Assembly: GCA_016218825.1 (NCBI GenBank)
Contig: JACRCV010000006.1
Coordinates: 70,797 to 134,796, forward strand
Direction: 5' to 3'
DNA from: Deltaproteobacteria bacterium
GTDB lineage: Bacteria; Myxococcota; XYA12-FULL-58-9
DNA length: 64,000 nucleotides
Shown here: piece by piece, positions 7,638 through 42,840 of the stretch
Position numbering within the stretch: position 1 is the stretch's first letter
Layout of the letters: the number at the start of each line of letters is the position of its first letter
The notes under the pieces: generated by a model
What the model saw: the letters and a program-made list of their open reading frames with translations, nothing else
Databases searched by the model: none
Told to the model about the DNA's origin: nothing
Program-made: the position numbers and the translations under genes

Positions 7638-9266
7638 TTGCCACCCCTTCGGGCCCGACTCGCCGCTCTTTGCACCGACCACGACGGCGCGATCCGGCGC
7701 GCTTGCCCGGCGCTGTTGGTCGCGACCCTGCTCTACGCGGTCGACTGCGACAAGGCCTACAGCATCGACGACAGCCTGTTTCTCACGCAGGCGGCGCAAG
7801 TGCTCGCCGATCCGTGGCAGCCGCTGGCCGGCGAGGTGGTCTGGGACTACAGGGTCGGCCGGGCCTCGGAGCTCTCGCCCTCCGGCGTCGCGATGGCCTA
7901 CCTCCTGGCGCCGGTCGTCCTTCTCGGCGCCGAGGAGTGGCTGGCGCATCTGCTCGTGACCCTGCTGCTGATGGCCGCGGCGATCGCGGTGGCCTGCATC
8001 ACTGTGCGTCTGGGGCTCGAGGCCCTGGAGGCGGCGGTCGCCACCCTGCTCGTGGTCTCGATGCCGACGGTGCTCGGGATGGCGTCGACGGTGATGCCGG
8101 ACATCGCGGCCCTGACCTTCGGCGCGTGGGGCGTCGAGCGGGCGTTGGCGTTTCGGACTCGGCGCCGACTCGGTGCCGGGGTCGCGAGCGCCGTCCTCGT
8201 AGGGCTCGCGGCGCACTGTCGGCCGCACGCGTTGTTGCTCGCGCTCGTGGTCGCGGCCTTCACCGTCGACGACGGCTGGGCCGGCGGTTGGCGGGGGGTC
8301 GCGTGGCGGCGCGCCTGGCCGGCGGTCGGCGGCATCGTGGCGTTCGGGCTCGGGATCTTGGTGACGCGCGACGAGCACGCCGCGGGCGGCAACCTGGCCG
8401 CGGTCGCGGCGTTTGCCAACCTCGAGCGGGTGCCGAAGAACCTGGTGGGCTTCTTCGCGCACTTGGTGTTCGCGCTGCCGCTGACGCTGCCCTATCTGGC
8501 GGTGCGCTGGCGCCGGCTGCCCTGGGGCGTCGTCGGCGCCGCGGTCGGGCTCGGCCTCGCGGCGCTGTGGCAGTTCGGGCGCCTGCGGTGGTGGTACGCG
8601 GCGGGGATGGCCGGGCTGTCGGTGGGGGTGTTGGCCGACGTGATGCTCGAGGGGCTGCGGCGCCGCGACCGCCTGCAGCTCATCCTCGGCGGCTGGTTGC
8701 TCGTCGCGCTGCCGGTCGCGATCTACGTCCACCTGCCGTCGAAGTTCCTGATGATCTCGGCGCCGGCCGTGAGCCTCGTCGTCGTCCGCGTCGCCGGCGA
8801 ATGGCGCCCGGGGCCGCGCCGCGGGCTCTGGCTCGTGACCTGGGCGTCGTCCTGCCTCTTGGGCCTCGCGATCGTGCGCGCCGACGCCGCGGACGCCGAG
8901 AGCGGGCGCAGGGCGGCCGAGGTCTTGATCCGACCGCGCACCGAGCGCGGCGAGCCGGTGTGGTACTTCGGTCATTGGGGCTACCAGTTCTACGCCGAGC
9001 AGGCCGGCGCCCGCCCGATCTTGCCGACCCCGCCCTACGCGGCGAAGGGCGACGTGATCGTCGGCAGTGGCGGCGCCGGTCACCCGTGGCTGAAGCGCTA
9101 CGCTCGGCGTCTGTTGGCGACCTCGAGGCTGCCCCGGGCGCCCGGCGGTCGGGTGATGGGCGGGGCCTGGGGCGCCGGGTTCTACTCCGACGCCTGGGGC
9201 TACTTGCCGTGGTCGTACGGCGACGAGCCGCTGCCGACTTTCTCGGCCTGGCGAGTTGAGCGATGA
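7638..9266 (+). CDS. Polytopic membrane protein, glycosyltransferase-39/ArnT-like
   Basis: The 542-residue product has many hydrophobic segments spread over residues 20-420, then a soluble C-terminal part. Near residue 45 the sequence Y-S-I-D-D-S resembles the first periplasmic loop of GT39/ArnT-type glycosyltransferases, where an acidic pair follows the first helix. Such enzymes move sugars from polyprenyl-phosphate donors to acceptors outside the inner membrane. The C-terminal region contains W-Y-F-G-H-W-G-Y-Q-F-Y-A, a pattern seen in this type of protein. The start is a TTG just after the gamma-subunit stop, so it could be cotranscribed with the oxidoreductase. Specific substrate is unknown. 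Confidence 0.6.
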   Translation: MPPLRARLAALCTDHDGAIRRACPALLVATLLYAVDCDKAYSIDDSLFLTQAAQVLADPWQPLAGEVVWDYRVGRASELSPSGVAMAYLLAPVVLLGAEEWLAHLLVTLLLMAAAIAVACITVRLGLEALEAAVATLLVVSMPTVLGMASTVMPDIAALTFGAWGVERALAFRTRRRLGAGVASAVLVGLAAHCRPHALLLALVVAAFTVDDGWAGGWRGVAWRRAWPAVGGIVAFGLGILVTRDEHAAGGNLAAVAAFANLERVPKNLVGFFAHLVFALPLTLPYLAVRWRRLPWGVVGAAVGLGLAALWQFGRLRWWYAAGMAGLSVGVLADVMLEGLRRRDRLQLILGGWLLVALPVAIYVHLPSKFLMISAPAVSLVVVRVAGEWRPGPRRGLWLVTWASSCLLGLAIVRADAADAESGRRAAEVLIRPRTERGEPVWYFGHWGYQFYAEQAGARPILPTPPYAAKGDVIVGSGGAGHPWLKRYARRLLATSRLPRAPGGRVMGGAWGAGFYSDAWGYLPWSYGDEPLPTFSAWRVER

Positions 9267-9288
9267 TGGCGTGGACGGGAGGATGATC

Positions 9289-10623
9289 ATGAGAGCGCTT
9301 CTCGTTGCGATGAGCCTGGCGCTGCTGTGCGCGGCGGCGGGCTGCAAGAGCCCGACGTCGTACTGCGAGACCGGCAGGACCCTGTGCGACGGCCTCTGTG
9401 TCGACGCCTCCCGCGATCCGAACAACTGCGGCGCCTGTGGCCAGGAGTGCGGCCTCGGGAGCTGCACCAACGGCGCCTGTGTGTGCGCCGCGAGCCCGAG
9501 CACGGTCACGACCTGCGGTGGCTCCCCGGCGTGCGTCGACATCGCCACGGACCCGAACCACTGCGGCGGCTGCGGGCGGCCCTGCGCGCTGGCGGGCGAG
9601 GCGTGCAGCGATCAGACGTGCGCCTGTCCGGCGTCGACCCCCGACCACTGTCCGGACACCAATCCCACCGCGTGCGTCGACAAACAGAGCGATCGCGACA
9701 ACTGCGGCACCTGCGGCAACCGCTGCCTCACGAACCACGTCTGCGAGGGTGGCGAGTGCGTTTGTCCGGCGATCGCGCCCGACCTGTGCAACGGGATCTG
9801 CGTCAACCTGACGAGCGACGCGCGCAACTGCGACACCTGCGGCCACGCGTGCAGCACCAACCACGTGTGCGTGAGCCGCGCCTGTGTCTGCCCGACGACG
9901 CTGCCGGACGACTGCACCGGGACCTGCGTCAACCTGGCGACCGACGCCGCGAACTGCAACAGCTGCGGTCGCCTCTGCCTCACGAACCACGTCTGTCAGA
10001 GCCGCGCCTGCGTTTGTCCCGCGGCGCTGCCGGACGAGTGCAGCGGCAGCTGCGTCGACCTGGCGACGGATCGAGCGCACTGCGGTGACTGTGCCAATGC
10101 TTGCACCACCAACCACCTGTGCAGCAACCGTAGCTGCGCCTGCCCGGCGACCCTGGCCACCGACTGTTCCGGAACTTGCGTCGACACCACGACCGACCCG
10201 GATCACTGCGGCGGCTGCGCCAACCCGTGCCCGGCGGTCGCGAGCTGCACCGCCAGTGACTGCGTCTGCCCGCGGGGCTCTGCTGCCTGCGGCGGGGAGT
10301 GTTGCGAGGGGGGCTCGAGCTGTTGCGCCGATTCGAGCTGCCCGATCACTCACGACAACGGCCTGGGCGGGCACTTCTTCGCCTGCGTGCCGCTCGCCAC
10401 CTACGACGAGAGCACCGCCACCGCGGCCGCGATCTCCTGGAGCCCCGGCGGTCAGCCGGGCGCCTCGACCTGCACCGGCTGCGTGGCGTGGCAAAACGGC
10501 GCCGAGTGCGTCGTCTGGTGCTACGCCCCGCCGCTCGCCGGCTTGGCGCGCGTCAACCCGAACGGCATCGATTGCATCTGCCCCACCGTCGCCGGCGGCC
10601 CCCAGACCTACGTCTGGAACTGA
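9289..10623 (+). CDS. Large cysteine-rich repeat lipoprotein
   Basis: The ATG was chosen because GGAGG lies five bases upstream and it gives a clean signal peptide with lipobox A-A-A-G-C at residue 19; in-frame TTG and ATG codons slightly upstream are alternatives. The 444-residue protein consists of seven repeats of about 42 residues, each with an (N/H)-C-x-x-C-(G/A) core followed by a C-x-x-x-x-C-x-C-P segment and often T-N-H-V-C, and a C-terminal domain of about 120 residues with extra Cys pairs and no repeat. It is predicted to sit on the outer membrane or cell surface as a rigid, disulfide-rich rod. Function is unknown; such proteins are frequent in Myxococcota. Confidence 0.8.
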   Translation: MRALLVAMSLALLCAAAGCKSPTSYCETGRTLCDGLCVDASRDPNNCGACGQECGLGSCTNGACVCAASPSTVTTCGGSPACVDIATDPNHCGGCGRPCALAGEACSDQTCACPASTPDHCPDTNPTACVDKQSDRDNCGTCGNRCLTNHVCEGGECVCPAIAPDLCNGICVNLTSDARNCDTCGHACSTNHVCVSRACVCPTTLPDDCTGTCVNLATDAANCNSCGRLCLTNHVCQSRACVCPAALPDECSGSCVDLATDRAHCGDCANACTTNHLCSNRSCACPATLATDCSGTCVDTTTDPDHCGGCANPCPAVASCTASDCVCPRGSAACGGECCEGGSSCCADSSCPITHDNGLGGHFFACVPLATYDESTATAAAISWSPGGQPGASTCTGCVAWQNGAECVVWCYAPPLAGLARVNPNGIDCICPTVAGGPQTYVWN

Positions 10624-10661: not shown

Positions 10662-12608
10662 TCAGCTGCCGGTGTAGCGCACCACGCCGTCGGTGGTCGC
10701 GAACCACTTCACGCCCTGGGCGTCGATGTAGATCGCGCGCACGTCGTTGGTGGCGCCGCCGAAGTCGGCGTTGGTGAAGTTGGTGATATTGCCGGTGTCG
10801 GGATCGAGGCGCGAGACCCCGTTGTTGGTCGCCACCCAGACGATGCCGTTCGCGTCGACCACGACGTCGCGGACCTCGTTGGCGGCGAGCCCGGTGTCGC
10901 GGTCGTAGAGGATCATGCCGCCGGTGGCGGGGTCGTAGCCCACGAGCCCCTCCGACGTCCCGATCCAGAGCATGCCGCCGCTGTAGGCGAGCGCGGTGAT
11001 CTCGTCGGTGGGCAAGATGGAGTTGTCTTGGTCGAGCACCGTAGCGCACAGCTCGTTCGCCGGGGTCGCGAGCGACGCCGCGGCGTCGGTGACCACGCAC
11101 AGGCCGCCGCGGGTGGCGACGTAGAGGGTGCTGCCGACGAAGAGCACGTCGCGGACGTTGTTGCTCGGCAGGTTGGAGTTGTTGTCGTCGAAGACCTGCT
11201 GCGGATCCAGCGTCGTGCCGTTCGCCATCCCCAACAGCAAGCCGCTGTCGGAAGCCGCTGCCGCCAAGGTGCCGGTCGCGTCCACCGCGGGGTACTGGTT
11301 GCCGGTCACCTGGGCGCAGTTGCTGAGGAGGCCGGCGGCGTAGTCGCACCGGCTCAGGCCGTCGGCGGTGGCGATCACCGCCTCACTGCCGAGCACCGCG
11401 ACGTCGAGGACCGAGACGTTGCCGCCGCCCGAGCCGAGGTCGTTGCCGTCGTAGCTCGCCGTGACCTGGAGGTTGGCGTCCAAGATCGTGAGGCCGTCCG
11501 CGGTGCCGATGAAGGTGTAGCCGCTGCCGTCGCTGCCGATGAAGCGCAGGTTGGTGTTCGGCAGGACGTCGTTTATCGCCTGCGAGCTCGGGAACAGGTC
11601 GGCGCTACTGCCGCCGGGCCCGACGACGTAGACGTCGCAGATCTCGGTCGCGGTGGCGCCGCGGGTGTCGGTGGCCGAGAAGCGGAGCGCGTGCTTGCCG
11701 AGCGCCAACGTGCCGGACAACGTCGCGCTGTCGCCGCTCGTGGTCTCGCCGGTGAGCAAGTCGGTCCACTGGCCGGCAAGACCGGCGTCCCAGGTATCGG
11801 GGTCGGTGACCGTGGCGGTGAGCGTCAGGCTGCCGCCCTGCTCGAGGGTCGCGGGGCAGGTCGCGGGCGTGGTGATCTGCACCGTCGGCCGGGTGTTCGG
11901 CGGCGCCACGGTGATGCTGACCGCCGCGGTCCCGGCGCGACCGTCGCCGCCGGCGAGGTTGTCGGTGACCGTCAGCGTGATCTGATGGGTGCCGGCCGCG
12001 AGGCTGTTGATGGCGAAGGAGTCGGCGCCGTTGCCGATGGCGCCCGCGAGGCTCGAGGTCCACGCGAAGGTGGCGGTGCGCTGTCCGGCGCCGGCGTTGC
12101 CGGACACCAGGCGCACCGGCGTCGCGATGTCCAAGGTCGACGCCGTCCCTTGGAAGCTGAGGTTCTGGCCGACGGTCTCTTGGCTGCCGTCGGTCGGGCG
12201 GCTGATCTGGACCGCGAAGTCCGAGAGCGTCACCTGCACCGAGTCGGACGCCGATCGACCGTTGAAGGTCGCGGTGACGGTCACCAGATGCACGCCGTCG
12301 GCGAGCACCTGGTTCTGCAGCGGGTTGGTGTCGCCCAGGAAGCCCTTGAGCGAAGAGCTCCAGCTGACGGTGCCCGGCGCGACCCGGCGGTCGTTGTCGA
12401 AGAACTCGGCCTCGAAGGTCACCGTCGTTCCCGACAGATAGGAGCTCGTGCCGTTCGGGCGGATGATGGTCGCCACGAAGGTGCCGCCCCCGACCTGGTC
12501 GGAGTCGCCGCCGCTGCCGTCGCCGCTCGCGGTCGTGGTCGCGACGCTTTGACCGCCGCAACTACTCAGGAACAAACCCAAACCGAGCACCAGAGTGAGC
12601 TTTTGCAT
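10662..12608 (-). CDS. Lipoprotein with Ig/PKD-like domains and beta-propeller
   Basis: AGGAGG four bases before the ATG fixes the start, giving a 648-residue lipoprotein with lipobox L-S-S-C at residue 18. Residues of roughly 50-340 form three tandem Ig/PKD-like beta domains with Q-I-T-L-T-V-T-D-type strands. The rest is a series of seven or so short repeats resembling the two-component-regulator propeller, for example G-V-S-R-L-D-P-D-T-G and T-S-E-G-L-V-G-Y-D-P. Such propellers are normally the sensor part of hybrid kinases; here no kinase follows. A surface-exposed binding or adhesive role is likely but not shown. It follows the sigma/caspase operon after 58 bases and may be part of it. 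Confidence 0.75.
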   Translation of the reverse strand: MQKLTLVLGLGLFLSSCGGQSVATTTASGDGSGGDSDQVGGGTFVATIIRPNGTSSYLSGTTVTFEAEFFDNDRRVAPGTVSWSSSLKGFLGDTNPLQNQVLADGVHLVTVTATFNGRSASDSVQVTLSDFAVQISRPTDGSQETVGQNLSFQGTASTLDIATPVRLVSGNAGAGQRTATFAWTSSLAGAIGNGADSFAINSLAAGTHQITLTVTDNLAGGDGRAGTAAVSITVAPPNTRPTVQITTPATCPATLEQGGSLTLTATVTDPDTWDAGLAGQWTDLLTGETTSGDSATLSGTLALGKHALRFSATDTRGATATEICDVYVVGPGGSSADLFPSSQAINDVLPNTNLRFIGSDGSGYTFIGTADGLTILDANLQVTASYDGNDLGSGGGNVSVLDVAVLGSEAVIATADGLSRCDYAAGLLSNCAQVTGNQYPAVDATGTLAAAASDSGLLLGMANGTTLDPQQVFDDNNSNLPSNNVRDVLFVGSTLYVATRGGLCVVTDAAASLATPANELCATVLDQDNSILPTDEITALAYSGGMLWIGTSEGLVGYDPATGGMILYDRDTGLAANEVRDVVVDANGIVWVATNNGVSRLDPDTGNITNFTNADFGGATNDVRAIYIDAQGVKWFATTDGVVRYTGS

Positions 12609-12666: not shown

Positions 12667-13389
12667 TCACCGGCCGGCGTCCAGCGAAACAACTGTGCTC
12701 CCGGTCGGGGTCGTGGGCTTGTCACCCACATGCGCGGACACCGACGCCCGGATGTTGGCCTCGATGCCGAGGGCGACGGCGTCGTTGTGCTCGTCATCGA
12801 GCCGGTACTCACCGACCTCGTCGGGCTCGAGCCCTTCGCTGTCGACGTCCTTGAACCACTGGGTGAGGTCGAAGAGGACGGCGACGACGACCGGGGCGGC
12901 GCCGAGCTCCGCCTCGAGCTCGACGTCGACGGCGTCCATCGTCTGGTCCCGGTAGGTAAACGCCACCTTGTTCATGACCCCGGCGGCGAACACGCTCACC
13001 GACTCACCCCGCCGGACCCCGTCTCCGGAAGGCGGTGGCACCTCGACCGTGAGGTTGCGAAGCGCCGTCGCGCCGACTTCGGCCTCGAACAGCGTCGTGG
13101 TCGCGAGCAGGTTCACGTTCACCGCGGCGCCGCTCGCGACTGGATCGCCGTCCGTGTGGAGCGTCACCTTGCCGAGACGCAACAGCGCTTCGTACACCGA
13201 GGTGTCGTGGCCGAGCGGAACGTCGTCGTCCGCGTCGTCGGGCTCGGTTGCGGCCTCGGTCGTCATCCCGGTCACCGTGACGCGCACCGCGGTGCCGGGC
13301 GACGCGCCGCACGCCGTCGCCAACGACAGCGCCACGGTGCCCACCGGGCCCAGCGACCACGCGCGTCTTCGTTTGCCACCCACGCTCAT
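12667..13389 (-). CDS. Putative lipoprotein of the sigma/caspase operon
   Basis: GAGGTG just before the ATG sets the start; upstream in-frame codons lie in the intergenic sequence and the end of the previous gene. The 240-residue product has an Arg-rich N-terminus, a hydrophobic helix and lipobox L-A-T-A-C near residue 27. The mature part is rich in Val, Asp and Glu and looks all-beta, without a recognised motif. It begins only seven bases after the stop of the thrombospondin-type-3 lipoprotein gene, so it should be made with it. Unknown function; probably an outer-membrane partner of that protein. Confidence 0.7.
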   Translation of the reverse strand: MSVGGKRRRAWSLGPVGTVALSLATACGASPGTAVRVTVTGMTTEAATEPDDADDDVPLGHDTSVYEALLRLGKVTLHTDGDPVASGAAVNVNLLATTTLFEAEVGATALRNLTVEVPPPSGDGVRRGESVSVFAAGVMNKVAFTYRDQTMDAVDVELEAELGAAPVVVAVLFDLTQWFKDVDSEGLEPDEVGEYRLDDEHNDAVALGIEANIRASVSAHVGDKPTTPTGSTVVSLDAGR

Positions 13390-13396
13390 TGGCACC

Positions 13397-14230
13397 TCAC
13401 GGCGGCAGCGGCGGCGAGACGCACTGCGTCGGATCTTTGACGCAGGCGTCCCCCACACCGTCCAAGTTCAAGTCCAGTTGTTCGGGGTCGTAGGCGAAGG
13501 GGCAGTCGTCGACGGCATTCGGGATCCGGTCGCCGTCGATGTCGAGATCGCAGGCGTCGCCGATCTCGTTGTGGCTGCAGTCCGCCTGGTTCGGGTTCGC
13601 GATGCCGAGGCAGTTGTCGTGCGAGTCACAGGCGCCGTCGACGTCGGCATCGATGCTCCCGGTCGGGTCGCGCCGGCACTGGTCGAAGACGTCGAGGACC
13701 CCGTCGCCGTCGGTGTCGGCGTCACAGGCGTCACCGTAGGAGTCGCCGTCCAGGTTGTCCTGGCGCGGGTTGACGTGCGCCACGCAGTCGTCGCAGGCGT
13801 CGCCGATGCCGTCGCGGTCGCCGTCCTCGCCGCCCGGGTTTGCGACCCACGGGCAGTTGTCATCGCGGTTGCCGACGCCGTCGCCGTCCGGGTCGGCGTT
13901 CGGGTCGTCGGTGAGGCTCAGGCCGACCTCGAGGCGCTCGCCGGCGAACACCGTGATCGGTAGATGATTGCTCCACGAGGGCGATGGACCCTGCACCGAC
14001 GCGACCACGGTATTGTCGCCGGCCGGCACCGACTCGACGACGGGGTCGGGGAGCGCCGCGTAGCGCAGGCGCGAGCTGTGGTCGTGGTGCTGCACGCGCA
14101 CCTCGACCGCCGCCGCTCCTTCGGGGAAGCGCAACAGGTAGAGGGCCACCGATCCGGCGTCGCGGCTCAGGTCCAGGCCGCAGCCGCCGATGCAGAGCGG
14201 CAACGCGGCCAAGGTCAGGGATCGAGCCAA
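13397..14230 (-). CDS. Lipoprotein with thrombospondin type 3 (Ca-binding) repeats
   Basis: The 277-residue protein has a signal peptide and lipobox I-G-G-C at about residue 16, a beta-rich domain to about residue 105, and then tandem thrombospondin-type-3 repeats with D-x-D-x-D-G-x-x-(D/N) calcium loops, such as D-P-D-G-D-G-V-G-N and D-T-D-G-D-G-V-L-D, ending in a short tail. Such repeats bind many calcium ions and form stalks at the cell surface. The start is a TTG inside the 3' end of the caspase-like gene (16-base overlap), implying translational coupling. A later start would remove the signal peptide, so the TTG is preferred. Confidence 0.8.
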   Translation of the reverse strand: MARSLTLAALPLCIGGCGLDLSRDAGSVALYLLRFPEGAAAVEVRVQHHDHSSRLRYAALPDPVVESVPAGDNTVVASVQGPSPSWSNHLPITVFAGERLEVGLSLTDDPNADPDGDGVGNRDDNCPWVANPGGEDGDRDGIGDACDDCVAHVNPRQDNLDGDSYGDACDADTDGDGVLDVFDQCRRDPTGSIDADVDGACDSHDNCLGIANPNQADCSHNEIGDACDLDIDGDRIPNAVDDCPFAYDPEQLDLNLDGVGDACVKDPTQCVSPPLPP

Positions 14231-15696
14231 GACAGCACCGCCGCCGCCCCGAGGGAAATCACGCTCACGCCGCCGGAGAGCATCGCCAGCGTGTGCATCG
14301 CCTCGGCCCGGGCGCGCTTGTCGGCGAGCTGGTCCGGCGAGCCGGCGGCGTCGCGGTAGTCGGCGGCCGCGACGCGCGCCCAGAGCTCGAGGACGCCGCT
14401 CGCGACCGCCAGGGTCCCGCCCGCCGCCAAGGTCCCGTAGCGCCACGGCCGCAGCGCCGACCCCGGCACCATGACCTCGACGACCGCGGGGGACAGGGTG
14501 GCCGACAGCTGCGCCTGGCGGAAGCCGGTCACGAACTCCGGTCCGAAGGGGATCGCGAACAAGTAGCGCTCGAAGGCGTCGTTGGCGCTGCCACGGGCCG
14601 CGAGCGTCGGGCTGCGGCCGGCGAGCGATCCGGCCGCGATGACGCTGCCGTCGGCGGCCGGGTCGACCCGGTATTCGACCGCGTCGCTCCTCAAGAAGTA
14701 GTGCGGTCGCGGCACCAGGGTCAGCGCCAGCGGTGTCTGGTGCTGTTTGTTGAAGTCGGCGAAGCGCCGGCCACGGTCGTCCTCGAGGTAGTAGCGTCCG
14801 GCCCAGGCCTTCGGCACCTCGAGCCGGGCGCCGCGGCCGGGCGCCGCGAACACCGGCTCGGCGAGGTTCTGGGCCGGGGCGGCGGCGAACACCGTCAGCC
14901 GGGTCTTGGGGTCGGGGAGCGCGCCGTTGGCGGCGGCGATGAACGCCGCCACTTCGCCATAGTCGATCTGGCCGTCGCCGTTGGCGTCGGCGGCCCCGGC
15001 GAGGGCCGAGCGCAGCTCGTGGGAGAAGATCCCGGCCTCGATCCGGCCCCACTCGTGCACCTCGGCGGCGCTGGAGGTGGAGAGGATGACGCCGGTGTTG
15101 GGGTAGGCGGCGAGCTGCTGTTTGCCGACCAGCTCGCGGATCAGGCTCGAGTAGTCCCCCGCCGGCCGCGCCTGGGCGCCGCGGGCGGCGACCATGACGT
15201 AGGCGTTGCAGGCGTCGATGATCAGATGGTTCACCGTCGCCGGCGACGCCGCCACCACCTGCTCGAACAAGTCGCGGCGGCTGAAGGGCGCGTCCAGGAA
15301 GTGGACGTAGCCCTCGCCGTCCTCGCCGACGTCGCCGTGGCCGGAGAACACGAAGTAGAACACCACCCGGATCCCCGCGACCACGTCGGCGCGCATCGCG
15401 GCGAACAGAGACCGCGCGCCGTCGAGCACGGCGGCCTTCCGTGGCGGCTCGGTCTCGGCCGCGAGCTCGGGGTAGAGCCCTTGGGTGTCGCGGTCGAGGA
15501 CGGTGTAGAGCTTGACGCTGTCGGCCTCGAGGCCGAAGAGCTCGGCGTAGCGGACGCCGTCGTCGTCGGCGAACTGCAGCGCCGGCCGGCTTGCCATCAG
15601 GCTGGTGTTGTTGGCGACGATGAGCGCGTAGGTCTTGGCCGGCGCCGCGGGGGGAGCCGCGGCCAGCAGCACGCCGATGGTGACGATGCTCGTCAT
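14215..15696 (-). CDS. Secreted caspase-like protein (peptidase C14 fold)
   Basis: The 493-residue protein has a signal peptide (cut near residue 20) and a caspase-fold domain starting T-Y-A-L-I-V-A-N-N. The catalytic pair is His120 in F-S-G-H-G-D and Cys163 in I-D-A-C-N-A. An EF-hand-like loop D-A-N-G-D-G-Q-I-D-Y-G-E spans 237-248. Residues of about 285-340 form a small beta domain with D-D-R-G-R at 306-310. Two hydrophobic helices lie near residues 430-450 and at the C-terminus, so it is probably anchored in the membrane with the caspase domain outside the cytoplasm. It overlaps the anti-sigma gene by four bases (ATGA). Substrates are unknown; the family includes metacaspase-like Arg/Lys-specific proteases. 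Confidence 0.85.
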   Translation of the reverse strand: MTSIVTIGVLLAAAPPAAPAKTYALIVANNTSLMASRPALQFADDDGVRYAELFGLEADSVKLYTVLDRDTQGLYPELAAETEPPRKAAVLDGARSLFAAMRADVVAGIRVVFYFVFSGHGDVGEDGEGYVHFLDAPFSRRDLFEQVVAASPATVNHLIIDACNAYVMVAARGAQARPAGDYSSLIRELVGKQQLAAYPNTGVILSTSSAAEVHEWGRIEAGIFSHELRSALAGAADANGDGQIDYGEVAAFIAAANGALPDPKTRLTVFAAAPAQNLAEPVFAAPGRGARLEVPKAWAGRYYLEDDRGRRFADFNKQHQTPLALTLVPRPHYFLRSDAVEYRVDPAADGSVIAAGSLAGRSPTLAARGSANDAFERYLFAIPFGPEFVTGFRQAQLSATLSPAVVEVMVPGSALRPWRYGTLAAGGTLAVASGVLELWARVAAADYRDAAGSPDQLADKRARAEAMHTLAMLSGGVSVISLGAAAVLSWLDP

Positions 15697-16490
15697 GGTT
15701 GGATGTCTAGGAGCATGGTGTCCTGGGCCCGGCCGACGTCGGGCAGCTCGACGAGCTCGCGGAGGTCACTGCCGGCGGCGCGCTGCCACGCCGCTTCGAC
15801 GCGGGCGCGCTCGAGCGGTTGATCGTCGAAGATCGCGAACAGACGCAACGGCCCGGGCGCCGCGTCGATCTCCCAGGCGTGTCCCACCGGTTCTTCGCTG
15901 ACGTTCGTTTGCAGCACTTCGTGTCCAGCGGAGGAATGATACCAATGGAGCGAGCCGCTCGCATCGATCCCGACCACCGCCAAGTGACGGAAATCGCTGT
16001 TGGAATAGGTCACCTGCACGACCGCGCCGCGCTTCAGCGGCGTACCGGCGAGCGCGCGGCTGACCTGTGACACCCGGGTGGGGCTCGCCTCGACGGTGAA
16101 CAGGCTGATGCGCACCGCCTGCGGCGCGGTCGCGACGCCGCGGGCGCGGAGCTGCTCCTCGGGCTCGCGCTTCACCGTCAGCACCAGGATCGTGAGCGCC
16201 GCCGCCATCGCCAACGCCGGCGCCCAGGTTTTCAGGCCGGGCGGCGCGCGCCGCGCCCGGCCGCCGTCGTTCAGCACCAGCTCAGAGAGGCGGGCGCTCG
16301 CGGCGGGGGCGAGTCCCGCGGGTGAGAACAGCGCGTCTTCGAGCCCCCGCACCTGTTCGTAGTAGCCGCGGCACGAGTCGCAGCTCTTGAGGTGGGTGCG
16401 CAGCCGCGCGTGGCGAGCGCGTGACAGACCGGAGACGAACAGCCGGTCGATGGCGTACAAGTGACGGCGGTGCCAGAGCTCCCTGATCAT
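15693..16490 (-). CDS. Zinc-finger anti-sigma factor with extracytoplasmic sensor-like domain
   Basis: The 265-residue protein has a cytoplasmic H-x3-C-x2-C zinc finger (His33, Cys37, Cys40), the hallmark of ECF anti-sigma factors. One membrane helix follows at about 90-106 and then an outside domain. The segment around 150-240 (K-R-G-A-V-V-Q-V followed by G-I-D-A-S-G-S-L) resembles the DUF4384-type domain often found next to caspase-like genes. It should hold the adjacent sigma factor inactive and release it on an extracytoplasmic signal. Start and stop overlap the sigma gene and the caspase gene by four bases each. Confidence 0.82.
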   Translation of the reverse strand: MIRELWHRRHLYAIDRLFVSGLSRARHARLRTHLKSCDSCRGYYEQVRGLEDALFSPAGLAPAASARLSELVLNDGGRARRAPPGLKTWAPALAMAAALTILVLTVKREPEEQLRARGVATAPQAVRISLFTVEASPTRVSQVSRALAGTPLKRGAVVQVTYSNSDFRHLAVVGIDASGSLHWYHSSAGHEVLQTNVSEEPVGHAWEIDAAPGPLRLFAIFDDQPLERARVEAAWQRAAGSDLRELVELPDVGRAQDTMLLDIQP

Positions 16491-17203
16491 GACCCCTCCG
16501 AGCCCACGGCCGGTCCCACCTGGCCGGGGAGCTTGTGCTTCCGGCCTCTGAAGTAGCCGTGGCGGTGCATGAAGCGCAGCAGACCTTTGCGGATCCGTTC
16601 TTCGGTCGTCTTGATCTTCGACGCCGACAGCCCGAGACGCAGGGTGATGTCGCTGTGCGACAGGCCTTCGGCGTAGCGGAGGTCGAACACCTGCGCCTCG
16701 CGCGCCGCCAGGCCCCTGCGGTACTCGGTCACCAGGGCGCGCAGCTCCCGGCTCTGCAGGTCGCGCTCCGGGTTGCCGGTCGTGACCTCGGCGGCGGCCT
16801 CGAGGGGATTGTCGGCCGCCGAGTAGTCCTCGCCGCCCGGCACGTCGCGCATCTCCTCGAAGCCCACTTGATCCAGCTGGCGGCGGCGGGCGTGGAACTC
16901 GTTGATGACGGCGTTCTTGGCGATCGTCAGCAGGTAGGCGCGAAACGGGCGCAGGCCGTCGTAGCTCGAGCGGGCGTTGTCGGAGAACGCGCGGCGAAAC
17001 ACCTCCTGCAGCGCGTCCTCGACCGCGAACACTTCCCGATAGCCCGCGAACCGCACCTGCCGCTCTCCCACCCGGAAGGTGAAGCCCCGCCGCAAGAACT
17101 GCGCTACTTCCGGGGCGTAACGCAGAAACACCTCTCGCAACGCCGCCGGCGCGCCGGTGCGAAAGTCACGAAGGAGGCCTCGGTTCTCGACCAACAAGGT
17201 CAT
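16487..17203 (-). CDS. ECF-type RNA polymerase sigma factor
   Basis: The 238-residue protein has a sigma region 2 (F-A-V-E-D-A-L-Q-E-V-F-R-R-A-F and R-P-F-R-A-Y-L-L-T-I-A-K-N-A-V-I-N) and a region 4 helix-turn-helix (R-E-A-Q-V-F-D-L-R-Y-A-E-G-L-S-H-S-D-I). It directs RNA polymerase to the promoter of its own regulon. Compared with typical ECF factors of about 180 residues it is longer, with an extra Arg/Lys-rich C-terminal tail after region 4. It heads the operon and overlaps its anti-sigma gene. An AT-rich TATATT sits about 50 bases upstream (17256-17251) and may be part of its promoter, but no -35 element is clear. Confidence 0.88.
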   Translation of the reverse strand: MTLLVENRGLLRDFRTGAPAALREVFLRYAPEVAQFLRRGFTFRVGERQVRFAGYREVFAVEDALQEVFRRAFSDNARSSYDGLRPFRAYLLTIAKNAVINEFHARRRQLDQVGFEEMRDVPGGEDYSAADNPLEAAAEVTTGNPERDLQSRELRALVTEYRRGLAAREAQVFDLRYAEGLSHSDITLRLGLSASKIKTTEERIRKGLLRFMHRHGYFRGRKHKLPGQVGPAVGSEGS

Positions 17204-37653: not shown

Positions 37654-38439
37654 CTAGTCTTTCTCCGCCGCGCCGCGTCGGATCGTCACCCAGCGCTGCT
37701 GCACGGCAGCCGGCAGGCCGAGCAAGCGCTCGTCCTTCGGGGGCCCGTTGGCGAAGCTCCGCCGGCCGGCGGCGCGCACCGTCTCGAGCGCGAGCGGCTC
37801 GGGGCTGAACAAAGCGACGAGGTACTCGGTGGCGGCAGAGTCATCCAGGACCAGACTGCCGGGGAGCGCCTGGTCGGCCCCGGCTTCGAGGCGCTCGCTC
37901 TTGCTGCCGGCAAACGGATAGTAGGCCGACACCGCGCCGTCGGGCGCGATGCCCAAGAGCAGCAGGTAGCAGGGCGAGTCCACCGAGACCACGAAGCGCA
38001 GCGCGTCCCCGACTTGGAAACGATCTCCGGAGACGCCGGGCGTGATCGCTGTGCGGCGTTGCACCATGAAACGCATCGACGCGCCTTTGAAGCGCACGCC
38101 GTCGTCACGCTGCGCCGGCCAAGCCAACACCAGCACCAGCACCACGGTCGCCGCGGCCATCGCGGTCGCGCCGAGCCACCAGGCGCGCCGGCGGCGAGCG
38201 GCGGCGGGTGACACCCCGGCGGTCGCGGCGGCGGCCACCAGGCGCGCCACCCGCCCGGCGCTGGTCTCCTGGGCGGCGACGAACAGCTGTCGACGCTCTT
38301 GGCAGCGGCGGCAGGTCGCGAGGTGCGCCGCCGCGGCGGCGGCGAGCGCGTCGCCACCGACGTGACGGTCCAAGGCCAGGTCCGACAGGCAGCCGAGCGC
38401 CGGGGGCGAGGTCGCGGGCATGGGATCTTCGACACTCAT
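37654..38439 (-). CDS. Zinc-finger anti-sigma factor with extracytoplasmic sensor-like domain (second module)
   Basis: The 261-residue protein has the zinc-finger pattern H-x3-C-x2-C (His39, Cys43, Cys46), a membrane helix at about 87-107 and an outside domain. In the latter, residues of about 143-215 (V-G-D-A-L-R-F-V-V-S-V-D-S and L-L-G-I-A-P-D-G-A-V-S) match in pattern the outside domain of the first anti-sigma factor of this window, including the G-I-x-x-D/S-G turn. The protein should bind and inhibit the sigma factor encoded just upstream; the ATG overlaps the sigma stop by four bases. The start was chosen from that overlap. Confidence 0.8.
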   Translation of the reverse strand: MSVEDPMPATSPPALGCLSDLALDRHVGGDALAAAAAAHLATCRRCQERRQLFVAAQETSAGRVARLVAAAATAGVSPAAARRRRAWWLGATAMAAATVVLVLVLAWPAQRDDGVRFKGASMRFMVQRRTAITPGVSGDRFQVGDALRFVVSVDSPCYLLLLGIAPDGAVSAYYPFAGSKSERLEAGADQALPGSLVLDDSAATEYLVALFSPEPLALETVRAAGRRSFANGPPKDERLLGLPAAVQQRWVTIRRGAAEKD

Positions 38440-38933
38440 GGGGCCGACTCCAACACGGTGATCAGCTGCTCGATCGCCTTGAGGCGTTTGGCGACGGTCC
38501 GGCGGGAGGTGCCGGTGGTCGAGGCGATCTCCTCGAGCGTCATGCCGTCGACATAGCGGTACACGAAGATCGCTTGGCTCTCGGCGTCCAGGTCCCGGGC
38601 GACGCGGGTCAGCAAGGACTTGTGGCGGTAGTGCTGGTAGGGGTCGACCGGGGTCAGGCTGCCCCACTCGAGCACCGGATCCGGCACCTCACGGGCACGG
38701 CGGCGCTTGGCCGACCGCAGGCGGTTCAGACAGACGTTGGTGGTCACCCGATAGAGCCAGGTGGTGACCGCGGCGTCGTGGCGAAACTGATGGCCCTTGG
38801 TCATCACGGTGAGGAACACCTCCTGGGCGGCGTCCTCCGCCTCGGCGCGATCGCCGACGATCGCCTGGCAACGACGCAAGACGCTGCTGCCGTACTGGCG
38901 GCAGAGCATCGCGGTATCGAGGGCATCGGCCAC
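38436..38933 (-). CDS. ECF sigma factor (second module)
   Basis: The 165-residue protein has region 2 motifs (D-A-A-Q-E-V-F-L-T-V-M and T-W-L-Y-R-V-T-T-N-V-C-L-N-R-L-R) and a region 4 helix-turn-helix (M-T-L-E-E-I-A-S-T-T-G-T-S-R-R-T-V-A-K-R-L). This is the normal length of an ECF sigma factor. The start is GTG; a ribosome-binding-like AGGAG lies 13 bases upstream, somewhat far, so the start is not certain. It is cotranscribed with its anti-sigma gene. A divergent region of about 190 bases separates it from the VIT-VWA, caspase and PKD genes, which may be its targets. Confidence 0.85.
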   Translation of the reverse strand: MADALDTAMLCRQYGSSVLRRCQAIVGDRAEAEDAAQEVFLTVMTKGHQFRHDAAVTTWLYRVTTNVCLNRLRSAKRRRAREVPDPVLEWGSLTPVDPYQHYRHKSLLTRVARDLDAESQAIFVYRYVDGMTLEEIASTTGTSRRTVAKRLKAIEQLITVLESAP

Positions 38934-39126
38934 GCGGGTCGCTCGTCTCCTGTCCCCTTCCGAAGAGTAGGTACCACCGCAGCCGAGCTATCGCCAAACG
39001 CCGCGTGCACTCCCCTTCGACACCGCAGCGGCGCCGGCGCGGGCCACCGTCGCGCCCGGGGCGCAAATAGTCGCGGTGGCGGTGTCGAACGCCGGCAGAC
39101 TCGAGCTGCGCGAAAAGGAGATCTCC

Positions 39127-41181
39127 ATGCGTTTGGTGTTCACTCTCTGTGTGGTGTTGTCCTGCTGCGGTTGCGACGAGCTCTTCTGTGGAGGACCATG
39201 CGGCATGGGCGGCTGGGAGGCCGGCACCGTCCGGGTCGAACAGCTGACCTACTCGCTGACCGAGGCGAACGAGGTCGTCAGCGGCGACATGGAGATCGCG
39301 TTCGCTGCCGACGTCGGGAGCTTCAACGACGGGAGCTACGAGTTCCACCTGCCGCCGGGCGCCGTGATCCACACCGCCGAGCTCTACTTGCCGAACGAAG
39401 AGCGCTGGGAGCGCGCCGAGACGCTCGGGCGGCGAGAGGGTCAGACCGCCTATGACGAGATCGTAGAGCCCCGGCCCGACAAGGACCCGCTTCTATTGCA
39501 GCGCGTCGGCCCCGACAGCTATCGCGTCCGCGTCTACCCGGTCGTGGAACACCGGGCGCTTCGCGTGCGGATCCGCTACGCCCACCCCCTCGCCAGCGGT
39601 GACCGCGGTCGAATCCTGTGGGTGCCGCTTGCCCAGGCGCGCGGCGCGCTGCAGCCGAGCGTGCGCCACACGCGGGTGACGGTGACCACCGGCCAAGGTT
39701 GGCAAGGCGCAAGCTGGCAGCAGACCGGCGACCTCGGCGGCCTCGAACAGGTCGACGAGTGGAGCGACAACACCACGAGCGTGACCTTCGTCGGCGGCGA
39801 CATCGATCACGACATCGGCCTGGCGCTCTTCGCGCCGGTGAGCCCGGCGGTGCTGACCGCGCTCCAGTACGAATCACCGGCGGCCGGCGTCCCGCGGCAC
39901 CTCTTCGTCGGCTGGACGCCGGACTTCTCGGCCTATCCGAGCGTCGCCGCGGGCGCGCGCAACGTGGTGTTCGTCGTCGACCTCTCCGGGTCGATGGTCG
40001 GGCAGAAGATCGCCGAGGCCGAGACCGCGGTCATCGCCGCGCTCGAGACGCTGGCGCCCGCCGACTGGTATGGCCTGGTGGCGTTCAGCGGCGCGACCGA
40101 GCTGTTTCGCGAGGAGATGGTCGGCGGCGCGGACACCGCCGCCGCGATCGCCTGGGTGCGCACCTGGCGGCCGCAAGACTACACCGATATCGGCGCCGGC
40201 CTCGCGGCGGGGGCGAAGCTCGGGGCCCGATCGCCGGCGGCCGACGTCCCGGTGGACCTGGTGCTGGTGACCGACGGCCGGCCCACCGCCGGACCGACGA
40301 CCACCGACGCCATCCTCGGCGCGGTGCAAGCGGTGGCGGCCGAGAGCGGCCGGACCATTCGAATCTTCGGCTGCGGCATCGGCAGCGACGTCGACCAGAG
40401 CCTGCTCGTGGATTTGGCGACCGCGACCGGCGGCGAGACCACGTTCGCGCTCGCCGACCAGAAGATCGGTGAGCAGCTCGCCGCGCTCTTCGACCGGGTG
40501 CGCTCCGGTGGCGCGTCTCAGGTCGAGGTGCGCCTCGAGTCCGAGGCCGGCGCCACGACGCAGGTGTTCTCTTGGCCGCGGGTGTTTCCCGGCACGCCGC
40601 TCTATCTCGGGGCCACCGACGTTCACGCGGATGCCGTCACCGTGAGCCTCGCCGCGACCACCCCGGACGGCGTTGCCATCACGATGCACGCCGCCCTCGA
40701 TCTCGCCGGCACCGCGACCAACACCGTCAACCTCGCGCCGCCACTCTACGCCAGGGCGTTGGCCGACCAACTGGAGCGCGACATCGACCAGACCCTGGAA
40801 TCTCCGGAGCGGGTCAGCGCCGCGGTGCGGCTCGCGAAGACCTACGGCGTCTTGAGCCGGTACTCGTCGATGCTGGCGCTCGAGAGCGCGGCGATGTACG
40901 GCCGCGCCGGGGTCGACCGGATCGAACGGGATCCGGCGGGGATCGCGCTGTCCCCGGTGTCGGCCTCGGCGATCGACGAGGCCCAGATCGGTGTCGCCGA
41001 CTTCGGTGCGCCCAGCGACGTCGCCGTCGGTACGGAGCCGGCGACCGGGTGCGCCTGCGCCGCGGCTTCTCTGCCCAGCCTCGCCACGCTCGCCGGCGTC
41101 GGCGTGCTCCGACGCCAGTGGCGGAAGCGCCGTGCGGGTACGAACGACAGCGGCGGGGGGGCGGGGGGGGGCCGCGCTTGA
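39127..41181 (+). CDS. VIT/VWA-domain surface protein with MYXO-CTERM-type tail
   Basis: The 684-residue protein has a lipoprotein signal peptide, with clustered Cys near residues 14-17. A VIT domain follows in the first third (inter-alpha-trypsin inhibitor type; Y-E-F-H-L-P-P-G-A-V and A-Y-D-E-I-V-E-P). The VWA domain carries an intact metal-ion adhesion motif D-L-S-G-S at 285-289. The C-terminus has a Cys-Ala-Cys, a hydrophobic helix and an Arg-rich stretch, the layout of the MYXO-CTERM sorting signal. It should be exported and anchored on the surface, where VWA domains bind protein ligands. The ATG was chosen for AAGGAG at six bases and the signal peptide. It leads a group with the caspase and PKD genes. 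Confidence 0.85.
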   Translation: MRLVFTLCVVLSCCGCDELFCGGPCGMGGWEAGTVRVEQLTYSLTEANEVVSGDMEIAFAADVGSFNDGSYEFHLPPGAVIHTAELYLPNEERWERAETLGRREGQTAYDEIVEPRPDKDPLLLQRVGPDSYRVRVYPVVEHRALRVRIRYAHPLASGDRGRILWVPLAQARGALQPSVRHTRVTVTTGQGWQGASWQQTGDLGGLEQVDEWSDNTTSVTFVGGDIDHDIGLALFAPVSPAVLTALQYESPAAGVPRHLFVGWTPDFSAYPSVAAGARNVVFVVDLSGSMVGQKIAEAETAVIAALETLAPADWYGLVAFSGATELFREEMVGGADTAAAIAWVRTWRPQDYTDIGAGLAAGAKLGARSPAADVPVDLVLVTDGRPTAGPTTTDAILGAVQAVAAESGRTIRIFGCGIGSDVDQSLLVDLATATGGETTFALADQKIGEQLAALFDRVRSGGASQVEVRLESEAGATTQVFSWPRVFPGTPLYLGATDVHADAVTVSLAATTPDGVAITMHAALDLAGTATNTVNLAPPLYARALADQLERDIDQTLESPERVSAAVRLAKTYGVLSRYSSMLALESAAMYGRAGVDRIERDPAGIALSPVSASAIDEAQIGVADFGAPSDVAVGTEPATGCACAAASLPSLATLAGVGVLRRQWRKRRAGTNDSGGGAGGGRA
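41155..41171 (+). repeat. Homopolymeric G tracts at the 3' end of the VIT/VWA gene
   Basis: A run of seven G, one C and nine G falls in the last codons of the VIT/VWA gene, after its Arg-rich tail. It could be a slippage-prone site or a place where sequencing errors concentrate. Confidence 0.7.
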
Positions 41182-41220
41182 CGGCAGCGGCTCCGGCCGT
41201 CATCTAATGGCGCCACTCCC

Positions 41221-42840
41221 ATGAATGCGTGTGGCCATCGGGGTTGGGGCGGTCGGGCGGTAGGCGGCGCGCTGGCGGCGTCATGTCTACTGCTCTGTGC
41301 GCCGGCGGCGGCCACCGAGCGCTTCGGGCTGTTCGCCGGCAACAACCGCGGCGGCGAAGACGAGGCCGGGCTGCGGTGGGCGGAACAGGACGCCGGGCGC
41401 ATGCGTGACCTCTTCGTCGGCCTCGGGGGGGTGCGGGCCGCGGATGCGATCCTGCTCCTCGGTGGTGGCGCCCGCGACCTGCGGGCGGCGTTGGCGTCGC
41501 TCGCCGTCCGCGTGGCGGCGCAGAAGACCAAAGGCGAGCGCGTCGAGCTGTTCCTGTATTTCTCCGGTCACGGCGATGACGCCGGGCTGCACTTGAACGG
41601 GGCGCGCCTGGCGTTCGTCGCCATCGACGACCTGGTGTCGCAGATCGGCGCCGACACCGTGATCACCATCGTCGACGCCTGTCGCGGCGCCGGCCACGGC
41701 GCGAAGCGCAACAAGGGCGCGACGCCGGGACCCGAGTTCGACGTGCGCCTGACCCGCAACCCCGGTCCGACGGGCCACGTGCTCATCACGTCGGCGGGGC
41801 CCGACGAGGTGGCGCAGGAGTCCGATGCGCTCGGCGGGTCGTTCTTCACCCATCATCTGCTCTCGGGCTTGCGGGGCGCGGCGGACGCCGACCAGGACGC
41901 GCAAGTGTCGCTCGCCGAGGCCTATCGCTACAGCTATCACCACACCCTGTTCGGCTCGCACCGAACGGCGGCGGCGGTTCAGCACCCGGAGATGGAGCTG
42001 ACGCTCGGCGGCGAGGGCGAGGTGATCCTCACGTCGCTTGGCGGCGCCGCGACCAGCCTGCTCTTGCCGGGCGCGGTCTACGGCGACGTCCTCGTGGTGG
42101 ACGACCGCAGCGGCCGGGTGCTGGCGGAGGTCGACAAGGACCAGGGGAGCGTCGCGCGCTTGGCGCTGCCACCCGGGCGGTTGCGGGTCCAGGTGCGGCA
42201 GCACGGCCGGATCTACGCCGCCGAGCTGAGCTCCGACTGGGGTGGCGAAGTCGAGCTCGACGCGAGCACGCTCATCGAGCAGCCACGCCTGGCGGCGCTC
42301 GGCAAAGGCGCGGCGCTCGACCCGGCGCCGTGGGCGATGACCGGGGCGTTCGCGCTGCGCTCGGCCGCGGCGCTCGGTCGGGCCTTGTCGACCGGGGTGG
42401 CGATGAGCTTGGCGCGGCCGCTTCACGGGGCGCGCTGGTTCGGCCGCGCGGTGCTGCAGGCGGCACAGGCGACGGCGACGAATGACTCGCTCGCCTATCG
42501 TCACTTCGAGGGCCGGGTCGGCCTCGGCGCCGGCTACGGCGCTGATCTCGGCTTGCTGCAGCTCGAGGCGGCGGCGACGCTGTCGGCGCTCGGGGTCTGG
42601 GAACAGCGCCGGCGGCGGGAGGCGGAGCGGTTGGCGCAGACCGGGTTGGTGCGACCCCTCGCCGGCGGCTACACCGTTGGCCCGGAGCTCGGCGTCGAGG
42701 CCGGGCTCGGGCTGCCGCTCGTCGCTGATTGGGGTGTCGTCGTGGTGGCCGGGCCGTCGGCCGCGCTGCTCAAGGTCGACGGCGACGTCGCCCTCGTTAC
42801 CGGAGTGAGTGGCCGTGTCGGCGCGCTCTATCACTTCTAG
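41221..42840 (+). CDS. Secreted caspase-like protein with beta-barrel-like C-terminus
   Basis: The 539-residue protein has a signal peptide (to about residue 31). A caspase-fold domain follows, with His117 in F-S-G-H-G-D and Cys154 in V-D-A-C-R-G. An EF-hand-like loop D-A-D-Q-D-A-Q-V-S-L-A-E spans 222-233, where the Gly of the classical loop is Ala. A small beta domain at about 270-330 carries D-D-R-S-G-R (294-299). Residues of about 365-539 alternate hydrophobic and polar residues and end in Phe, which is typical of outer-membrane beta-barrels. This suggests a caspase-type protease carried by an outer-membrane barrel. The first ATG fits the signal peptide; the gene follows the VIT/VWA gene after 39 bases. 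Confidence 0.82.
   Translation: MNACGHRGWGGRAVGGALAASCLLLCAPAAATERFGLFAGNNRGGEDEAGLRWAEQDAGRMRDLFVGLGGVRAADAILLLGGGARDLRAALASLAVRVAAQKTKGERVELFLYFSGHGDDAGLHLNGARLAFVAIDDLVSQIGADTVITIVDACRGAGHGAKRNKGATPGPEFDVRLTRNPGPTGHVLITSAGPDEVAQESDALGGSFFTHHLLSGLRGAADADQDAQVSLAEAYRYSYHHTLFGSHRTAAAVQHPEMELTLGGEGEVILTSLGGAATSLLLPGAVYGDVLVVDDRSGRVLAEVDKDQGSVARLALPPGRLRVQVRQHGRIYAAELSSDWGGEVELDASTLIEQPRLAALGKGAALDPAPWAMTGAFALRSAAALGRALSTGVAMSLARPLHGARWFGRAVLQAAQATATNDSLAYRHFEGRVGLGAGYGADLGLLQLEAAATLSALGVWEQRRRREAERLAQTGLVRPLAGGYTVGPELGVEAGLGLPLVADWGVVVVAGPSAALLKVDGDVALVTGVSGRVGALYHF

Follow-up and report, generated by a model that had tools for sequence, protein, structure and literature searches.

Extracytoplasmic function sigma factors, membrane anti-sigma factors and secreted caspase-fold proteases form a conserved gene module in Myxococcota, with the caspase as candidate site-1 protease

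Genes for a sigma factor of the extracytoplasmic function (ECF) type, a membrane anti-sigma factor and a secreted protease with a caspase fold constitute a repeated core module across the phylum Myxococcota. With moderate confidence, based on sequences and structural models, the operon is read here as a membrane signalling switch that would bring its own protease, the caspase being the probable dedicated site-1 protease of its anti-sigma factor. The module is described from a stretch of 64,000 nucleotides (64 kb, hereafter the window) of contig JACRCV010000006.1, positions 70,797 to 134,796, in assembly GCA_016218825.1 of a Deltaproteobacteria bacterium. Five consecutive genes, referred to as module 1, lie on the minus strand of the window from 17203 down to 12667 and encode the ECF sigma factor, the anti-sigma factor, the caspase, a thrombospondin type 3 (TSP3) lipoprotein and a second lipoprotein (Table 1). 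The sigma and anti-sigma genes overlap by 4 bases, the anti-sigma and caspase genes by 4 and the caspase and TSP3 lipoprotein genes by 16, and the second lipoprotein gene begins 7 bases further on; this spacing had been given in an earlier note on the same DNA and is borne out by the coordinates of all five genes.

The extent of the association was established by neighbourhood analysis. The Pfam profile PF00656 misses the module 1 caspase in a genome search, and purpose-built profiles were therefore used. Caspase homologues were present in 42 of the 58 genomes searched, and sixty neighbourhoods were taken. Using iterated profiles, and with the module 1 locus included, both a sigma and an anti-sigma gene were found near the caspase at 54 of 62 loci, whilst six caspases had only the anti-sigma gene (five of these being near contig ends) and two had neither partner. 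The gene order was sigma-anti-sigma-caspase at 46 of the 62 loci, and at six the anti-sigma and sigma genes were divergent from the caspase. Searching in the reverse direction, from anti-sigma matches, yielded a caspase on the stretch at 34 of 39 places not previously seen beside one. The earlier note had named such an analysis across Myxococcota as a check on its proposal, and the gene types do indeed co-occur strongly and reciprocally. A second set of 80 loci, obtained by scanning a genome collection with a profile of nine close caspase sequences, showed both partners at 67, with eight others having only the anti-sigma gene and lying too near a contig end to show a sigma gene; the named hosts were Myxococcota, deltaproteobacteria or unassigned bacteria only. 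Protein distances correlate across the three partners, the highest correlation being that between anti-sigma factor and caspase (r = 0.78; 0/2000 permutations).

The genome from which the window comes (6.5 Mb in 121 contigs, assigned to Myxococcota from its relatives) has at least seven caspase modules in total. An anti-sigma gene is present at 7/7 caspase loci and a sigma gene at 6/7, the seventh being cut by a contig end. There are 41 sigma70_r2 matches in this genome, so that about 4% of genes would be expected to have a sigma gene within 3 kb. A paralogous module 2 lies in the window at 37654-45001 and consists of sigma and anti-sigma genes on the minus strand together with genes for a VWA lipoprotein, a caspase and a PKD protein on the plus strand. 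Five further caspase modules are located on contigs C99, C110, C40, C63 and C117 (loci L073, L094, L092, L091 and L093, respectively), and the sigma gene is on the contig in four.

The module 1 caspase matches Peptidase_C14 only below the curated Pfam cut-off; the identification, which had been made earlier from the sequence, is upheld by the conserved His/Cys dyad (62/62) and the predicted fold. The AlphaFold2 model has a predicted local distance difference test score (pLDDT) of 86.7 overall and near 97 in the core, and a Foldseek search of the PDB placed the MALT1 paracaspase and Arabidopsis metacaspase 9 (AtMCA-IIf) near the top. Seven residues, His120, Cys163, Asp161, Asp46, Glu215, Asp237 and Glu248, are invariant in an alignment of 62 proteins. 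In clan CD a preference for a basic residue at P1 goes with acids on helix alpha1, on loop L4 two residues before the cysteine, and on loop L5 (PMC4357240). In the model Asp46 stands at the start of helix 43-54, Asp161 at Cys-2 and Glu215 between strand 201-206 and helix 223-235; all three clan CD S1 regions therefore hold an invariant acid, and the caspase is predicted from these residues to cleave after Arg or Lys. The N-termini of the caspases are signal-peptide-like almost throughout, and at the C-terminus the proteins have either a helical hairpin or a beta-rich end.

An EF-hand-like loop had also been proposed in the caspase and this has stood up, with Asp237 and Glu248 conserved in 62/62 and Asp241 in 57/62. 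It is a 12-residue loop with D at position 1, D/N at 3, D/N at 5, G at 6 and E at 12, it lies between helices, and it is a single loop for which Ca2+ binding is predicted only. As a special feature of the module 1 locus it was rejected, being found family-wide (62/62).

The profiles of Pfam and NCBIfam assign regions 2 and 4 only to the module 1 sigma factor. The anti-sigma factor has a single transmembrane helix and an extracytoplasmic domain, as judged by alignment and AlphaFold2 model; its matches to zf-HC2 (0.006) and NF052375 (5.9e-5) both lie below the curated cut-off, and an H33/C37/C40 pattern is present. The earlier note had classed it as of DUF4384 type. Pfam gives no DUF4384 on the module 1 protein but does so on its module 2 paralogue, with which it aligns over the full length. 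A fold search with the anti-sigma factor produced no match below E=0.001, the best being immunoglobulin-like RhoGDI, and no signal of homology was found between its domain and the caspase's own beta domain.

The most informative column of the anti-sigma alignment is a single basic position in the linker. In 159 non-redundant homologues of about 20% identity, column 117 of the anti-sigma alignment contains Arg in 105 and Lys in 54, i.e. a basic residue in 159/159, as compared with 57% for the next most basic well-filled column. The position is 12-15 residues after the transmembrane helix, between the membrane and the beta-sandwich, where the linker has a pLDDT below 50. On a tree built without the site columns Arg and Lys interchange at least 11 times and are never replaced by another residue. 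An alignment-free test for hydrophobic-x-x-[RK]-[GS] within 28 residues after the transmembrane helix scored 135/159, against a mean of 23 and a maximum of 37 in shuffles. Other zf-HC2 anti-sigma factors of the same genome were considered as a control, and only about three have a transmembrane helix, too few to be useful.

Two types of site context can be distinguished. Type 1 anti-sigma factors have [FWL]-x-[APVS]-R-[GS], with F, W or L at P4 in 104/115, mostly A, P, V or S at P2 and G or S at P1' in 111/115, and type 2 anti-sigma factors have mostly R-[hydrophobic]-K-G. The preference of MALT1 is for Arg at P1, almost only Gly and some Ser at P1', Ser, Ala or Pro at P2, and Leu as the best natural P4 residue (PMC6207715). 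As far as sequence goes, the context of the anti-sigma site resembles the cleavage preference of this Arg-specific paracaspase.

The same type-specific motif recurs in the caspase itself at Cys+9, the start of the disordered p20-p10 loop (residues 174-180 have a pLDDT below 50). Type 1 caspases have [RK]-[GS] there in 111/115, with Arg in 109; type 2 caspases have K-[GS] in 36/38, with Arg at P3 in 26, and thus mostly the R-x-K-G of type 2 anti-sigma factors. At locus L160 the sequence TRLKGG occurs in both caspase and anti-sigma factor, and the pair of sites in module 1 is LRAR-G and VAAR-G. A homologous module of M. xanthus (L223) has GFTAR-GA as its anti-sigma site and AYSR-GP in the caspase loop. 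The p20-p10 interdomain loop is the region that is cut during caspase maturation, so that a single specificity would seem to account for both substrates, the caspase loop and the anti-sigma linker.

The sequences show a conserved gene order, an active site with all its residues in place and an unvarying basic site that is matched in the caspase loop, and they support the predicted topology; from this we infer the following course of events. The anti-sigma factor would tether its ECF sigma factor to the inner membrane, and the caspase would be exported and then anchored in the same membrane through its C-terminal helices, with Ca2+ at the EF-hand-like loop probably stabilising or activating it. 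On receipt of a signal the caspase would mature through a self-cut after Arg172 in its interdomain loop, and the mature enzyme would then make the site-1 cut in the anti-sigma factor, after Arg117 in the disordered juxtamembrane linker. A general site-2 protease of the RseP type would complete the breakdown of the anti-sigma factor and so free the sigma factor; an M50 site-2 protease, generic in kind, is encoded in the genome (PF02163, E=2.1e-63). The freed sigma factor would transcribe its own operon together with the surface lipoprotein cargo. The wider proposition, that the secreted myxobacterial caspases are phylum-wide dedicated, self-maturing, MALT1-like site-1 proteases, with R-G or R-x-K-G specificity matched to the anti-sigma factor and several such modules coexisting in one cell, we regard as evenly poised.

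A number of observations weigh against the caspase as site-1 protease. The zf-HC2 match of the anti-sigma factor is sub-threshold and zinc ligands are missing in some homologues, so that its sigma-binding role is presumptive. Instead of being cut, the invariant [RK]-G could be there for binding or to inhibit as a pseudo-substrate. No clear shared ECF promoter motif was found upstream of the sigma genes, where the top dyads look lineage-driven; a scan for sigma-70-type promoters is uninformative for ECF promoters. The match of the type 2 P3 residue between caspase and anti-sigma factor (Fisher p=7e-4) is inseparable from shared descent, because there are too few independent pairs, and the co-variation was rejected as independent proof. 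A few caspases have no sigma and anti-sigma genes nearby (L060, 5022-6275; L078, 4890-6128; L185; L228), and these are candidates for working in trans. Conversely, in five sigma/anti-sigma pairs with no caspase on the examined stretch (L130, L131, L136, L145 and L147) the anti-sigma factor keeps the basic residue in column 117.

It may be, at a distinctly lower probability, that the switch has the caspase as its output: another site-1 protease would activate the sigma/anti-sigma pair, which would then induce a secreted executioner or processing protease along with the lipoproteins, for instance in developmental lysis, predation or surface remodelling. The position of the caspase gene downstream of the sigma and anti-sigma genes would suit such an arrangement, as would the cell-death role proposed for myxobacterial metacaspases in a 2012 survey (PMC3501461) and the frequency with which lipoproteins follow the caspase (a strict lipobox in the first gene downstream of the caspase in 24/88, as against 16/188 control genes; Fisher p=8e-5). 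However, it leaves unexplained the invariant Arg/Lys site of the anti-sigma factor, the type-specific match of that site to the caspase loop and the near-constant proximity of these anti-sigma factors to a caspase. Less probable again is a linker that acts as a tethered inhibitor, the Arg or Lys sitting in the caspase S1 pocket and silencing the protease until a signal separates the two and activates protease and sigma factor together. Motif and S1 match would be equal to those of a substrate, and the gingipain prodomain is known to inhibit by means of an Arg inserted into S1 (PMC4357240), but the Gly or Ser at P1', the same motif at the maturation-type loop of the caspase and the predicted disorder of the linker favour a cut site. 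It is very improbable that the [RK]-G is a structural or export feature of the anti-sigma family unrelated to the caspase, with the genes linked only by block inheritance, since, although the proteins are co-inherited and the five homologues named above keep the residue, the linker is predicted to be unstructured, the positive-inside rule disfavours a positive charge on the outer face, and the exchange of Arg and Lys goes along with residues at P4, P2 and P1' of the kind that proteases prefer.

The lipoproteins present a different picture from the three core genes. Only the closest relative (L039/L169) has both the TSP3 and the second lipoprotein family, in the order sigma-anti-sigma-TSP3 lipoprotein-second lipoprotein-caspase, and elsewhere the place after the caspase is often taken by other exported proteins, often lipoproteins. 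They were for this reason rejected as core parts, and the lipoproteins and surface proteins are exchangeable, variable cargo. The claim that the whole locus forms one functional unit consequently holds for the sigma factor, anti-sigma factor and caspase, with their reciprocal co-occurrence, and fails for these two lipoproteins. A third lipoprotein gene, absent from the earlier note, lies 58 bases further along the same strand, so that the operon probably has six genes and extends to 10662. Adjoining it on the opposite strand (9256-10623, plus) is a gene for a cysteine-rich protein with five STIG1-like repeats (PF04885).

Table 1. Features of modules 1 and 2, with positions in the window
Feature	Position	Strand	Evidence
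ECF-type sigma factor, 238 aa, first gene	16487..17203	-	TIGR02937 E=1.8e-19; Sigma70_r2/r4 above cut-off
Anti-sigma factor, 265 aa: zf-HC2-like N-terminus, one transmembrane helix, disordered linker, periplasmic beta-sandwich domain (DUF4384-like)	15693..16490	-	NF052375 5.9e-5, below cut-off; AlphaFold2 mean pLDDT 84
Anti-sigma predicted transmembrane helix, residues 87-105	16176..16232	-	Helix 87-105 in AlphaFold2 model; hydrophobic columns
Anti-sigma R117 codon, proposed P1 of site-1 cut (R117-G118)	16140..16142	-	R/K in 159/159 homologues; linker pLDDT <50
Secreted caspase-fold protease, 493 aa: signal-peptide-like N-terminus, p20/p10, beta domain, C-terminal helical hairpin anchor	14215..15696	-	Alignment; model pLDDT 86.7
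Caspase catalytic His120 codon	15337..15339	-	62/62
Caspase catalytic Cys163 codon	15208..15210	-	62/62
Caspase Asp46 codon, predicted S1 acid on helix alpha1	15559..15561	-	62/62; position corresponds to S1 Asp on alpha1 of TbMCA2/MALT1
Caspase Asp161 codon (Cys-2), predicted S1 acid on loop L4	15214..15216	-	62/62
Caspase Glu215 codon, predicted S1 acid on loop L5	15052..15054	-	62/62
Caspase Arg172 codon (Cys+9), proposed self-maturation site R172-G173, start of disordered p20-p10 loop	15181..15183	-	Alignment; 174-180 pLDDT <50
Caspase EF-hand-like 12-residue loop D237-E248 between two helices	14953..14988	-	D237 and E248 62/62, D241 57/62; helix-loop-helix in model; EF-hand matches
Thrombospondin type 3 repeat lipoprotein, TTG start at 14230, cargo	13397..14230	-	PF02412, five TSP_3 repeats, E=2.8e-23; lipobox-like IGGC
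Second lipoprotein, cargo	12667..13389	-	Homologue only in L039/L169
Third lipoprotein, 648 aa, Ig/PKD-like and Reg_prop propeller repeats, probable last operon gene	10662..12608	-	58-base gap, same strand
Module 2 ECF sigma factor	38436..38933	-	PF04542 5.7e-16
Module 2 anti-sigma factor with DUF4384, site VRFK-G	37654..38421	-	PF14326 3.8e-9
Module 2 (type 2) caspase	41221..42840	+	PF00656 1.1e-9

The arrangement had been described in the earlier note as one not recognised from the literature, and this is correct only in part. A sigma-70/metacaspase operon was reported in 2012 by Asplund-Samuelsson et al. (PMC3501461) in Myxococcus, Anaeromyxobacter, Haliangium and Sorangium, and also in Ralstonia and Fibrobacter, and sigma-70 factors accompany four of the five metacaspases of M. 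xanthus (PMC3501461); these operons are of the same class as the one described here. The text of that study points to cell death and is without an anti-sigma factor, a periplasmic site or a mechanism, whereas here there is a near-constant third partner with a matching site. Neither the anti-sigma partner nor a caspase acting as site-1 protease turned up in a literature search, though this covered open-licence papers only and its negative result is weak evidence. What is new here, the invariant Arg/Lys site of the anti-sigma factor and its match in the caspase loop, suggests gene activation through cleavage of an inhibitor by the caspase.

Several known systems share some of these features. Regulated intramembrane proteolysis of anti-sigma factors (DegS/RseP on RseA, PrsW on RsiW, signal peptidase on RsiV/RsiP) likewise involves a membrane anti-sigma factor, an ECF sigma factor and a juxtamembrane site-1 cut, the last being proposed here; the known site-1 proteases belong to other families, whereas the candidate in the present case is a caspase-fold cysteine protease of the same operon, apparently dedicated to its own anti-sigma factor. 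The CASP/Craspase system of type III-E CRISPR (Csx29-Csx30-CASP-sigma; PMC10028731) also has a caspase-like (CHAT) protease that cuts the inhibitor of an ECF-like sigma factor, but that protease is cytoplasmic and RNA-guided, and the system is without secretion or a zf-HC2/DUF4384 membrane anti-sigma factor. The module caspases are not cytoplasmic CHAT proteases, as they have signal-peptide-like N-termini and a p20/p10 caspase fold. With the orthocaspases, metacaspases and MALT1 (clan CD) they share the fold, the His/Cys dyad, the acidic S1 residues and the predicted Arg/Lys at P1; unlike these, the module caspase is secreted and membrane-anchored according to its predicted topology, and it has an EF-hand-like loop in p10, a maturation-type site at Cys+9 and a fixed ECF operon. 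Protease genes have also been proposed to control the ECF54 sigma factors, which have CHAT or peptidase neighbours (PMC8999054), but those systems have no anti-sigma factor, whereas here the membrane anti-sigma factor is the proposed substrate.

The role of metacaspases in complex bacteria is a long-standing open question that has usually been framed in terms of cell death. The role proposed here is another one, in signalling, and it specifies both the substrate of the protease and the bond that would be cut. If this is true, it would add a new class of protease to the control of ECF sigma factors, in parallel to MALT1 and Craspase, and it would explain why there are many such loci per myxobacterial genome, each with its own surface lipoproteins. 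The caspase fold would then serve transmembrane control of transcription at the cell surface.

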